From Georgenia muralis (GTDB lineage: Bacteria; Actinomycetota; Actinomycetes; Actinomycetales; Actinomycetaceae), in the NCBI RefSeq assembly GCF_003814705.1, contig NZ_RKRA01000001.1, positions 1,054,001 through 1,118,000 on the forward strand: 64,000 bases of DNA. The letters are read 5' to 3'. The notes beneath the pieces were generated by a model that saw nothing but the letters and a program-made list of their open reading frames with translations, was not told where the DNA came from and ran no database searches. Below, one piece after another: positions 32,787 to 53,611 of the stretch (position 1 is the stretch's first letter; each line of letters opens with the position of its first letter). A program made the position numbers and the translations under genes.

Positions 32787-32791
32787 ATGAG
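32787..32791. repeat. 5-bp target-site duplication (left copy)
   Basis: atgag lies directly outside the left end of the insertion element; the same five bases occur at 34424-34428 outside the right end. Keeping one copy restores the GH65 frame exactly. Confidence 0.9.
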
Positions 32792-34423
32792 CCTCGATCC
32801 ACCGGTGGGGTGGGCGGGTCGTGACGCACGAGTGCCCTTCTGACCTGGGACGATGGGACTTGTCTAAGGTTCCGCGTCGCAGATAGAAGGGCACTTCGCA
32901 GGTGCGAGTCTCTCACAAGGTTTCCACGGATTTTGATGACCCGAATCTGGTGTCGGTGGCGGGTCTGGTCCCGACGATGGCGTTGGCGCGGCGGGCCGGG
33001 CTGCATGACCTGGCGGGGCAGCGGGTGAAGGTGCCTGGCGATGCGGGCGCCAATGCCGCGATGAAGGTCCCGGCCCTGGTGGCGGGGATGGTCGCGGGCG
33101 CGGACAGCATCGATGACATGGACCTGTTGCGCCACGGCGGCATGGGGAAGGTCTTCGCCGGGCTGCGGGCACCGTCGACGTTGGGCACGCATCTGCGCGC
33201 GTATACCCATGGGCATGTGCGCCAGCTCGACTCGGTCGCCGCGGCCGTTCTGGTTGGCCTGGCCGGGGAGGTCCCGGACCTGCTCAAGGGTTCCGAGGAG
33301 GTGGCCTACCTCGACGTTGACGACACCATGCGGCAGACCCACGGGTACCAGAAGCAGGGCGTGGCCTACGGGTACAACAAGACCAAGGGCCTCAACGCCC
33401 AGCTCGCGGCGGTCTCGACCCCGCTGGCGGCGCCGGTGATCGCCGCCACCCGGCTGCGCCGGGGCAACGTCTCCTCGCCCCACGGGGCGAAGTCGTTGAT
33501 CACCGAGGCGCTGGGCACCGCACGCCGGGCCGGGGTGAGCGGGCAGATCACCGTGCGGGCCGACAGCGCGTACTACACCCACGCCGTCGTCGCCGCCGCC
33601 TCCAGGGGCGGGGCCCGGTTCTCCGTCACCGCCCGGATGGACCCCGCGGTGGTCGCGGCAATCTCCCGGATCCCCGAGACCGACTGGGTGGGGATCAAGT
33701 ACCCCGCGGCGATCTGGGACCCCGACGAGCAACGGTGGATCTCCGACGCCGAGGTCGCCGAGGTCCCCTTCGTCGCGTTCACCTCCCGCCGGAAGGCCGA
33801 GCACGTCACCGCCCGGTTGATCGTGCGCCGGGTCAAGCGCCTGAATCCCAGGTCGGTCCCGGCCGGGCAGGGCGAGATGTTCGCCGCCTACCGCCACCAC
33901 GCCGTCTTCACCGACACCGAGCTGGCCATGCTCGAGGCCGAGGCCTCCCACCGCGACCACGCGATCATCGAGCAGGTCATCGCCGACCTCAAGGACGGCC
34001 CGCTCGCTCACCTCCCCTCCGGGGTCTTCACCGCGAATTCGGCCTGGACCGTGCTCGCGGCCATCGCGTTCAACCTCACCCGCGCCGCCGGCACCCTCGC
34101 CTCGACCCGGCACGCCCGAGCCCGGACCGCCACCATCCGCAAGCATCTGATCACCGTCCCGGCCCGTCTCGCGACCTCCGCCCGCCGGCTGCGCCTCCAC
34201 CTGCCCAAGGACTGGCCCTGGGAGCACCCCTGGCGCGCCCTCAACGACGCCGCCTTCGCTCCACCGCTCGCCCCCGCGGCCTGAGCCGCAGTTCCTGACC
34301 GCACGAGGAAACACACCGAAGTGGAAAAGGCCGGGCACACCGGCGACTACCCCACGCCCACCCAGGGGTGAACGGCCCCGACCCGAAATCAATCACCAAA
34401 GAATCCGCGTCGGTGGATCGAGG
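32792..34423 (+). mobile_element. IS1380-family insertion sequence, 1632 bp, complete
   Basis: The ends are perfect 13-bp inverted repeats: cctcgatccaccg at 32792-32804 and its complement at 34411-34423. They are flanked by the 5-bp direct repeat atgag. One transposase gene fills the inside, in opposite orientation to the disrupted GH65 gene. Intact ends, intact transposase and identical duplications indicate a recent insertion. No second copy lies in this window. Confidence 0.95.
32902..34284 (+). CDS. IS1380-family transposase
   Basis: 460 residues, full length, DDE transposase. It opens RVSHKVSTDFDDPNLVSVAG, the typical actinobacterial IS1380 start. Candidate catalytic acids lie in VAYLDVDDTMRQTHGYQKQG (first Asp), ITVRADSAYYTHAVV (second Asp) and HRDHAIIEQVIADLKDGPLAH (Glu, with the Y/K-rich surroundings of this family). 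GTG 32902 follows a purine-rich agaaggg about 10 nt upstream. It is expressed from inside the element, antisense to the host gene. Confidence 0.95.
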   Translation: MRVSHKVSTDFDDPNLVSVAGLVPTMALARRAGLHDLAGQRVKVPGDAGANAAMKVPALVAGMVAGADSIDDMDLLRHGGMGKVFAGLRAPSTLGTHLRAYTHGHVRQLDSVAAAVLVGLAGEVPDLLKGSEEVAYLDVDDTMRQTHGYQKQGVAYGYNKTKGLNAQLAAVSTPLAAPVIAATRLRRGNVSSPHGAKSLITEALGTARRAGVSGQITVRADSAYYTHAVVAAASRGGARFSVTARMDPAVVAAISRIPETDWVGIKYPAAIWDPDEQRWISDAEVAEVPFVAFTSRRKAEHVTARLIVRRVKRLNPRSVPAGQGEMFAAYRHHAVFTDTELAMLEAEASHRDHAIIEQVIADLKDGPLAHLPSGVFTANSAWTVLAAIAFNLTRAAGTLASTRHARARTATIRKHLITVPARLATSARRLRLHLPKDWPWEHPWRALNDAAFAPPLAPAA

Positions 34424-45558: not shown

Positions 45559-47388
45559 ATGGTTCAGGACGGTGGTTCGCAGGCTCTCCCGGGTGGTTCC
45601 CGGCAGGCCGGTCGCGTGCCCGTCCACGGATCTGCCGAGCACGACGCGGGGCGCGTCGACGAAACCGCTCACGTCGCTGCTGCTGGCGATCCTGCTGCTG
45701 GCGGGGCCGCCTCGTGGTTCGAGGCGGCGGTGGAGGAGTACGTGCAGGATGCGCGGGCGCGGGCGCGGCGGGCCGGTCGCTCGAGTTGTGGTCGGGGGTC
45801 CAAGGCGGTGCGGCGGGCGGTGGCCCGGACCGTGGCCGCGGGCCGGGCGCGGGGCCGGGTCATGGCCGACCACGCCCTCGCACCGGCCCCCGCGACACCG
45901 ACCCCCGCGACACCGGCCGCCGCGACACCGGCCCCCGCGACGCCGGCCTTCGCGACGCCGGGCGTGGCGGGACCGGCCGCCGCGCGACCGGGCGTGGCGG
46001 GATCGGCCGTGGCGGGCGGCGCGGTGGTGGTGGAGGGCGCCGATCTGGCCGGGCTGGTCGGGGAGCGGTTGCCGGGCCGGTTCGTCCTGGTCGACCCGGT
46101 CGCGGCCCGGCTCGAGCGGATGGTCCCGGGCCCGGCGCTGACCGCGGCCCTGGCCGGCCTGGCCGTCGCGGACGCCACGGACGCGGCCCTGGTCGAGGCC
46201 GTCGCCGCGCACGAGCGGCTGATCTCGGCCGCGACCGCCGCCCAGGCGCGGGCCCTGGAGGAGCTCCTCGCCCGGCGCGGGTCCGGGACCTCGGCGCTGG
46301 CCCGGGTCGCGGACGAGGTCGCCGCCCGGCTGGGCATCACCCACCACGCGGCCGAGCGCCGGACCCACGCCGCGGGGGTCCTGGCCCAGTTCCCCGAGGT
46401 CGCCGACGCCCTGACCACCGGACGGATCGACCCCCGCAAGGCCCAGATCCTCACCCAGGACGAGACGGGCCTGACCCTGGAGGACCAGCGCGCCCTGGCC
46501 ACCACCCTCCTGGACCGGGCCACCGAGCTCACCCCACCCCAGCTGCGTCAGGCCCTGCGCACCGCCGCGACCACCGCCGACCCCGCCGCCGCGGCCCGCC
46601 GCCACGACCGCGCCCACACCCACCGGGCCGTGACCATCACCGACGCCCCCGACGCCATGGCCTACCTGGTCGCCTACATCCGCGCCGACCACGCCCACAC
46701 CATCCGCACCTACCTCGACGCCCTCGCCGACTCCGCGGCCGGACCGGCCGAGACCCGCACCCGCGACCAGCTCCGCGCCGACGTCCTGACCGACACCTTC
46801 ACCCTCCTCCTCACCCGCGGCCTGGACCTGGACGGGCGCGCACTGCCCCGCCGCCACGGCCGCCACCCCCACATCCAGGTCACCATCCCCGCCGGGACCC
46901 TCCTGGGCCTGGGCGAGCACCCCGCCCACCTCGCCGGGTACGGCCCCATCCCCGCCGACCTCGCCCGCACCATCGCCGCCGACGGGACCTGGCGGGCCCT
47001 GTTCACCGACCCCGACACCGGCGAGTACCACCACCTCTCCACCCGCGCCTACCGCCCCGGCGCGGACCTGACCCGCCACATCATCGCCCGCGACGTCACC
47101 TGCACCTTCCCCGGCTGCCGCCAACCCGCCTACCGCACCGACCTCGACCACATCGACCCCCACGACCCCACCCGCACCAGCGACCCCACCACCGCGGACC
47201 AGACCTGCCAGGACAACCTCCACTCCCTGTGCCGACGCCACCACAACCTCAAGACCACCGGCACCTGGACCGTCACCCGCGACCCCCACACCGCCACCAT
47301 CACCTGGACCTCCCCCACCGGCCACACCTACACCCGCCACCCCACCCGACCACCCGGCCCCCCACCCACCGGCGACCCGCCCTACTGA
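45559..47388 (+). CDS. DUF222/HNH endonuclease domain protein (13E12-type)
   Basis: 609 residues. The N-terminal about 170 residues are variable and low complexity, with pentapeptide-like repeats (PATPTPATPAAATPAPATPA). DUF222 helices run from about 190 to 450 (AAHERLISAATAAQARALEE, RRTHAAGVLAQFPEVADALT, GRIDPRKAQILTQDE). The C-terminal HNH nuclease has Cys pairs and His: VTCTFPGCRQPAYRTDLDHI, then NLHSLCRRHHNLKTTG. The family is abundant and highly repeated in actinobacteria (the 13E12 repeats of M. tuberculosis). Its biological role is unsettled, possibly mobile. The DNA is extremely GC-rich, even for this window. Confidence 0.9.
   Translation: MVQDGGSQALPGGSRQAGRVPVHGSAEHDAGRVDETAHVAAAGDPAAGGAASWFEAAVEEYVQDARARARRAGRSSCGRGSKAVRRAVARTVAAGRARGRVMADHALAPAPATPTPATPAAATPAPATPAFATPGVAGPAAARPGVAGSAVAGGAVVVEGADLAGLVGERLPGRFVLVDPVAARLERMVPGPALTAALAGLAVADATDAALVEAVAAHERLISAATAAQARALEELLARRGSGTSALARVADEVAARLGITHHAAERRTHAAGVLAQFPEVADALTTGRIDPRKAQILTQDETGLTLEDQRALATTLLDRATELTPPQLRQALRTAATTADPAAAARRHDRAHTHRAVTITDAPDAMAYLVAYIRADHAHTIRTYLDALADSAAGPAETRTRDQLRADVLTDTFTLLLTRGLDLDGRALPRRHGRHPHIQVTIPAGTLLGLGEHPAHLAGYGPIPADLARTIAADGTWRALFTDPDTGEYHHLSTRAYRPGADLTRHIIARDVTCTFPGCRQPAYRTDLDHIDPHDPTRTSDPTTADQTCQDNLHSLCRRHHNLKTTGTWTVTRDPHTATITWTSPTGHTYTRHPTRPPGPPPTGDPPY
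45881..45960 (+). repeat. 15-bp in-frame tandem repeats inside the DUF222 gene
   Basis: About five copies of a unit close to cccccgcgacaccgg, encoding PATPT, PATPA, AATPA, PATPA and FATPG. It adds a flexible linker before the DUF222 domain and is expected to vary in length between strains. Confidence 0.8.
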
Positions 47389-51894: not shown

Positions 51895-51998
51895 TACCGA
51901 CCGGCTGTTGTTGTTCCCACCCCCGGGAGCTGTCTTCGGCACAGCGGATCGGGGGGCGGGCACCCGGCCGGCCCGAGCGGCTCGCTACCGTGTGGTTC

Positions 51999-52607
51999 AT
52001 GCCGCTGCTGGGACCTGCCCACCCGCTTCCGGCCCGGCCGGCTCGCGTCCTCGTCGCCGGCACCTCCGGAGCGGGCAAGACGAGCACCGCCCGTCGCATC
52101 GCCGAGCGGCTGGGGGTCCAGCACGTGGAGATCGACGCGCTCTACCACGGGCCCGGCTGGACGCCGCGGCCGACCTTCGAGGCCGACGTGCAGCGCTTCG
52201 TCGCCGAGCCGTCCTGGGTGACGGAGTGGCAGTACGCCTCCGTCCGTGCGGCCCTGGCGGAACGCGCAGACCTTCTCGTCTGGGTGGACCTGCCCCGCGC
52301 ACGGGTCATGCAGCAGGTCGTCGTGCGCACGGTCGTCCGGCGGCGACGTCGGCAGGAGCTGTGGAACGGGAACGTCGAGCCACCGCTGTGGACGATCCTC
52401 ACCGACCGCGAGCACATCGTGCGGTGGGCCTGGACGACCCACCGCAAGACCGCCGCGCGCGTCGCGGACCTCCGGCGCCGGCGACCGGACCTCCCGGTCG
52501 TGCGCCTTCGCAGCTGGCCGGAGATCGAGCACTGGATTTCCGGGCCGATGACCAGGCTGCCCGCGGGAGGCGCGAGCGGGCGAGGGGCGACCGATCTGGC
52601 GACGTGA
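51999..52607 (+). CDS. P-loop NTPase (adenylate-kinase-like, topology-modulation-protein-like)
   Basis: 202 residues. Walker A is VLVAGTSGAGKTSTARRIAERL. HVEIDALYHGPGWTPRPTFE and a DLLVWVDLPRARVMQQVVVR strand follow, then the basic RRRRRQELWNGN with REHIVRWAWTTHRK, a lid-like segment. This is the pattern of the FlaR/DNA-topology-modulation family, small nucleotide kinases of uncertain substrate. ATG 51999 is chosen over GTG 51990 because both lack strong ribosome sites and the ATG is closer to the domain. The gene diverges from dnaK. Confidence 0.85.
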   Translation: MPLLGPAHPLPARPARVLVAGTSGAGKTSTARRIAERLGVQHVEIDALYHGPGWTPRPTFEADVQRFVAEPSWVTEWQYASVRAALAERADLLVWVDLPRARVMQQVVVRTVVRRRRRQELWNGNVEPPLWTILTDREHIVRWAWTTHRKTAARVADLRRRRPDLPVVRLRSWPEIEHWISGPMTRLPAGGASGRGATDLAT

Positions 52608-52681: not shown

Positions 52682-53171
52682 CGGGAGGTTGAAGAAGTAG
52701 TAGATGTCGAACGCGGTGCCCATCCAGGTCGCCAGCATCCCGTCACCGGTCGCGACGAGCGCGACCTGCTCCGCCGGGCCGGCCTCGCCGTACGCGCGGG
52801 CGAGGGTGAGCATCTCGACCGGTCGCGGTGAGGCCATGTAGGCGGCCATCCCGAGGACGCCGAGACCCAGCGCCACCACGACGGCGGACCGGCTCACCTG
52901 CCACAGCACGACGGCGAGCGCGAGGTAGAGCAGGAACGCGAGGAGGTTGCTCACCACGTAGAGCATGTCGAGCGCGAGGACACCACGGACCGGGTTGTCG
53001 AGGAGCACCTCGAAGAGCCCCACGGTGGACTCCGGTGGGGGCCGACCAGGTAGATGCCGACCTGCACGAGGATGAGCGCCACGCTCGCCAGCGCCACCCA
53101 GGCGCCGGTGACGAGCAGTCCCGACCAGGGGAAGAGGTCGTTGCGGACCCCCGCTCGTCCAGGGCAACCAT
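52682..53171 (-). pseudogene. Inverted, frameshifted N-terminal part of a membrane-protein gene
   Basis: On the minus strand, a ribosome site (ggagg) and ATG 53171 lead into a membrane protein, but in three pieces. About 53171-53152 gives MVALDERG. About 53145-53043 gives VRNDLFPWSGLLVTGAWVAL and on to IYLVGP. 53041-52682 gives PPESTVGLFEVLLDNP, several membrane helices (MLYVVSNLLAFLLYLALAVV), then GTAFDIYYFFNLP. The two shifts fall in a G run (about 53150) and a C run (about 53040). The natural continuation of the protein is found on the opposite strand from 53260. The family is not certain (DUF4386-like in style). Confidence 0.8.
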
Positions 53172-53259
53172 CGGTCCTCCGATCCCGGCCGCGGACCTCA
53201 CGACCCGGCTGCGGCGTCATCCGACCGCGTTGCACGCCTCCGGTCAGCGTCCCTCGACG

Positions 53260-53487
53260 CTCCCCGTCCTTGCCGTGCTGATGTACCGGAGCAGCGTCTT
53301 CGGTCGGCCGACGGCGGTGTGGGGCCTCGTGGCCGCGTCGCTCATGGCCGTCCCGTCGAACTTCGGCACGGTCGGCCTGGTGTTCGCCATGGCGTCCCTG
53401 GTGCCCTGGGCCGTGTTCGCGGTGCTCGTCGCACGTCGTCTGCTCGAGCTGGCTCGACCGCCCAGCTCTCGGCCCATCGGACGCTGA
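53260..53487 (+). pseudogene. Detached C-terminal part of the same membrane-protein gene
   Basis: The plus strand reads LPVLAVLMYRSSVFGR, TAVWGLVAASLMAVPSNFGT and VGLVFAMASLVPWAVFAVLV, ending ARPPSSRPIGR. It comprises two or three membrane helices with no start of its own. Joined behind FFNLP of the minus-strand piece it would give FFNLPVLAVLMYRSS, a smooth membrane-helix transition. The two halves share ctccc at the joint. This supports inversion of about 580 bp (about 52684-53262) in an originally plus-strand gene. Confidence 0.8.
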
Positions 53488-53611
53488 CCGGTCCTGGGAG
53501 CGGCAACGAGGACCCCGCACGGCGGCGGCGCCCGCACGCTCCCGCATCCCTTGCAGGACCCTCACATCTGCCCCACCGACTCAGCACGCCGCCGCTCCTA
53601 GGCTCAGGACC

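Follow-up and report, generated by a model that had tools for sequence, protein, structure and literature searches.

The locus lies in a stretch of 64,000 nucleotides (the window; G000:C1:1054001-1118000) of the genome of Georgenia muralis (G000), which is 4.14 Mb in size and consists of a single contig. It was compared with its counterparts in two genomes of the same genus, G006 and G001, and positions in the G006 locus are given on L002. An intact P-loop NTPase gene is followed by two pieces of one other gene, whose start region and first two thirds are on the minus strand and whose last third is on the plus strand; the right neighbour is a response regulator gene. The features are as follows.

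51990..52607, plus strand: P-loop NTPase gene of 205 aa, the intact neighbour on the left; a gene 91% identical lies at the same spot in G006
52686..53253, minus strand: block of 568 bp inverted relative to G006 (blastn, base-level alignment and 264-kb comparison)
52686..53171, minus strand: N-terminal piece of a gene classed by sequence as DUF4386-like, start ATG at 53171, frameshifts near 53151 and near 53043 (alignment)
52686..52687, no strand: left inversion junction, two bases matching both sides (blastn)
53254..53255, no strand: right inversion junction, two bases against four that are unaligned in G006 (L002 1269 and 1854-1856; blastn and alignment)
53254..53487, plus strand: C-terminal piece of the same gene, in the original orientation, with its own stop codon (alignment)
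53510..53535, no strand: site of about 1 kb of extra DNA in G006, with an AlkZ-like gene unmatched in G000 (blastn)

As mentioned in an earlier note made from the letters alone, this arrangement looked like a membrane-protein gene split onto two strands by a local inversion, and the comparison with G006 bears this out. By blastn, window 52653-52687 matches L002 1234-1268 in the forward direction, window 52686-53253 matches L002 1853-1270 inverted with 89.7% identity, and window 53256-53509 matches L002 1857-2116 in the forward direction again with 87.3% identity. The G006 counterpart is an uninterrupted gene of 240 aa (L002:1366-2088), and both window pieces are covered by this one frame, all 240 aa being read from the matching ATG. 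It lies directly after the same P-loop NTPase gene, which is where the rejoined gene had been expected. The N-terminal piece was also correctly described as reading leftward from the ATG at 53171 with a ribosome site, since the alignment contains this ATG and a preceding GGAGG; the blastn matches place 82 bp of its own upstream DNA in the flipped block along with it.

The limits of the flip had been put at 52684 and 53262, and the start of the C-terminal part at 53260. The inversion and the plus-strand piece stand, but the positions do not: the left limit is at 52686/52687, the right limit is at 53253/53256, and the C-terminal piece begins at 53254. At the break, the protein reads F-N-L-V-T-L-L-V-L-A in G006 and in six of the nine relatives printed, and N-L-V-T-L-L-V-L-A in L031. 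The right piece of the window starts S-T-L-P-V-L-A, so that ACGCT is part of the right flank and the break falls at 53253/53256. Since 53254-53265 (S-T-L-P) aligns without a gap to V-T-L-L of G006, the ctccc at 53260, which had been proposed as a microhomology shared by the breakpoints, lies inside the right-hand piece and off the break. Between the G006 breakpoint regions (31 and 33 bases), inverted matches reach at most 5 nt, the length found most often in 1922 random pairs, and none of the inverted-repeat pairs listed (the 25 longest of 63 and of 61) joins the two breakpoints. A direct repeat of 7 nt, GACGCTG, near both G006 breakpoints was reached by 213 of the 1922 random pairs, and was dropped as a cause of the flip because direct repeats are not oriented so as to produce an inversion.

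When 264 kb of G000 was compared with 280 kb of G006, the blocks kept (60 bp or longer, 80% identity or higher) numbered 24 and covered 241,074 bases; one of them, 52686-53253, is inverted. With these limits, inverted blocks that are shorter or have diverged further would escape. Without the identity limit, four further short reversed matches of 70-76% identity were obtained; they match other places and seem to be paralogous matches rather than local flips.

The two halves are collinear on one strand in all 12 other genomes in which a relative was found, namely G006 and 11 loci from a scan of named genomes, G001 and G022 being among the 11. These 11 relatives, from Georgenia, Actinotalea, Agromyces, Intrasporangium, Myceligenerans and others, each gave a single match on one strand. 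The matched stretch is free of stops in 10 of them; the stop in the remaining one, L036, is at residue 232 of 236, past both halves. The idea that the halves come from two separate protein families is dismissed, as both match one protein. The N-terminal piece found a relative in 4 of the 59 genomes searched (G000 being one of them); when 14 genomes were searched with the C-terminal piece, the same 4 gave a relative. A DNA search of nine genomes of the genus, including G000, showed that G006 and G001 hold both parts, each collinear, while the other six gave short weak matches or none. The gene, present in three of the nine, is accordingly accessory. The opposite-strand arrangement, which the earlier note had named as a finding that would speak against it if shared by relatives, was seen in none of the eight other genomes of the genus searched in this way, of which only G001 and G006 have the gene.

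The intact protein appears from profile matches to be DUF4386-like (PF14329). Residues 21-222 of the G006 protein align to positions 1-197 of the 210 of the profile, that is, nearly end to end, and nine of the ten aligned relatives match it at E <= 0.01 (L036, the eleventh, was left out of the alignment). The G. satyanarayanai copy, at 29.8 bits, is above the curated cut-off of 27.6 bits, and those of G006 (26.3), G001 (18.3) and G022 (17.6) are below it. Whereas intact relatives match nearly the whole profile, the window copy is broken, and among its three pieces the C-terminal one alone matches, weakly (E 0.012). The G. satyanarayanai relative was modelled as all helical (mean pLDDT 75, pTM 0.59, 10 sequences), and the break corresponds to its Leu161, within a long helix predicted at residues 131-173. 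Judging from its hydrophobic helices, it is probably a membrane protein. A literature search on DUF4386, worded without the genus name or the gene locus, found no paper.

Other differences between the two genomes were seen in and around the locus. Just to the right of the counterpart of the broken gene, G006 carries on the minus strand a gene for an AlkZ-like DNA glycosylase (337 aa, L002:2066-3076), which has no match in the whole G000 genome and occurs also in G005 with 65% identity; the difference may reflect either a loss in G000 or a gain in G006. At window 46638-46642, G006 has about 1.3 kb extra, with a called gene of 294 aa that is unmatched in the window, and the window frame 46042-46641 matches DUF222. 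An insertion at 32790-34420, with the ends CCTCGATCCACCG and a target duplication of about 6 bp as read by eye, bears a 460-aa DDE transposase (PF13701; ORF 32902-34284, plus strand) and interrupts a glycoside hydrolase family 65 gene, which is uninterrupted in G006 (844 aa).

The alignment confirmed that the N-terminal piece contains two one-base frameshifts in addition to the break, so a full protein would come from neither orientation of the block. Among 50 G006 genes from 80 kb, 40 matched the window, and 37 of the 40 did so in a single frame with no stop (2 of the 37 over part of their length only); the rest were one gene split by an insertion element and two with one stop each. Eight of the 10 unmatched genes lie outside the part that corresponds to the window, and the broken gene itself is not among the 50. 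Frameshift noise thus looks low, and it is unlikely that the frameshifts are sequencing noise. Over the 264 kb, with gene calls that are rough, of 154 called G006 genes, 122 matched G000 at full length, 13 matched in another way (three of these in two frames, among them the insertion-split gene) and 19 had no match; in the reverse direction, 123 of 152 called genes matched at full length, 18 otherwise and 11 not at all. Stop flags were not counted as decay, and of the two inspected in the window, one was in a wrong-looking frame and the other at residue 685 of 696.

Substitutions polarised over 235 codons gave a mixed picture. When G001 serves as outgroup, the changes in the N-terminal piece number 9 nonsynonymous and 8 synonymous for the G000 branch, compared with 1 and 11 for the G006 branch (Fisher p 0.019), and for the whole gene p is 0.077. 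No difference was obtained with G022 (p 0.44 for the N-terminal piece, 0.37 for the whole gene) or with G. satyanarayanai (0.70 and 1.0) as outgroup. Relaxed selection on the G000 branch is therefore weakly seen at best.

We consider that an accessory, DUF4386-like gene became a pseudogene when it was broken by one inversion of 568 bp, which runs from the upstream DNA into the gene, and we give this reading a probability of about 0.88. It is quite unlikely that the block is flipped only in the assembled sequence and that the frameshifts are homopolymer errors. Both frameshifts do lie in or near short single-base runs, as such an artefact would have it; but it is chiefly between inverted repeats that assemblers flip pieces, and a search for such a pair at the breakpoints of this single-contig genome found none. 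Moreover, the right junction is off a clean flip by a few bases, and with 37 of the 40 matched neighbour genes in one stop-free frame, frameshift noise looks low. Still less probable is that the two pieces are new small working genes, or that the turned upstream DNA drives an antisense transcript into the NTPase gene. As the block took its 82 bp of upstream DNA along, leftward transcription toward that gene is possible, but the N-terminal piece is frameshifted, and the arrangement was seen in none of the eight other genomes of the genus searched by DNA.

A reversible, phase-variable inversion that switches a membrane protein on and off is the hardest to maintain. As in known invertible switches, one end of the block lies within a gene and the block carries the gene start and upstream DNA, and it resembles the intragenic invertible elements of phase variation in that one end is in coding sequence; however, here the inverted repeats at the block ends do not exceed chance, the frameshifts break both orientations, and relatives have a single orientation. 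The inversion resembles known short inversions that differ between related genomes, except that here it occurs in a bacterium and the gene was destroyed.

The inversion is most likely a one-off illegitimate event. It would have begun with two nearby double-strand breaks, whose repair put the middle piece back in the reverse direction. The rejoining may have followed an error-prone route, either end joining by Ku and LigD or a template switch over a few bases, and the resulting pseudogene would then have gathered its frameshifts or already have had them. Given the lack of repeats and the roughly 2 nt at the junction, the likeliest route would be end joining that reinserted the piece in reverse. 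Matches to Ku (PF02735) were found in all six genomes searched, including G000, and matches to LigD_N in both of the two searched; to judge by the presence of these genes and by how the junctions look, the end-joining route was perhaps used, and template switching fits as well.

The case is one of ordinary gene decay. It is doubtful that it represents something wider, in which small repeat-free inversions arise so frequently in bacteria with Ku and LigD that they regularly kill genes in this genus, the present locus being an instance, and in which the resulting opposite-strand pairs of fragments are annotated as unrelated genes. Annotation would tend to hide such cases, since the two fragments lie on opposite strands. 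The locus provides a clean example in which an inversion of less than a kilobase, with no inverted repeats, killed a gene and for which the ancestral order is known from relatives, and thereby a breakpoint-resolved case for asking if bacterial end joining makes such inversions.
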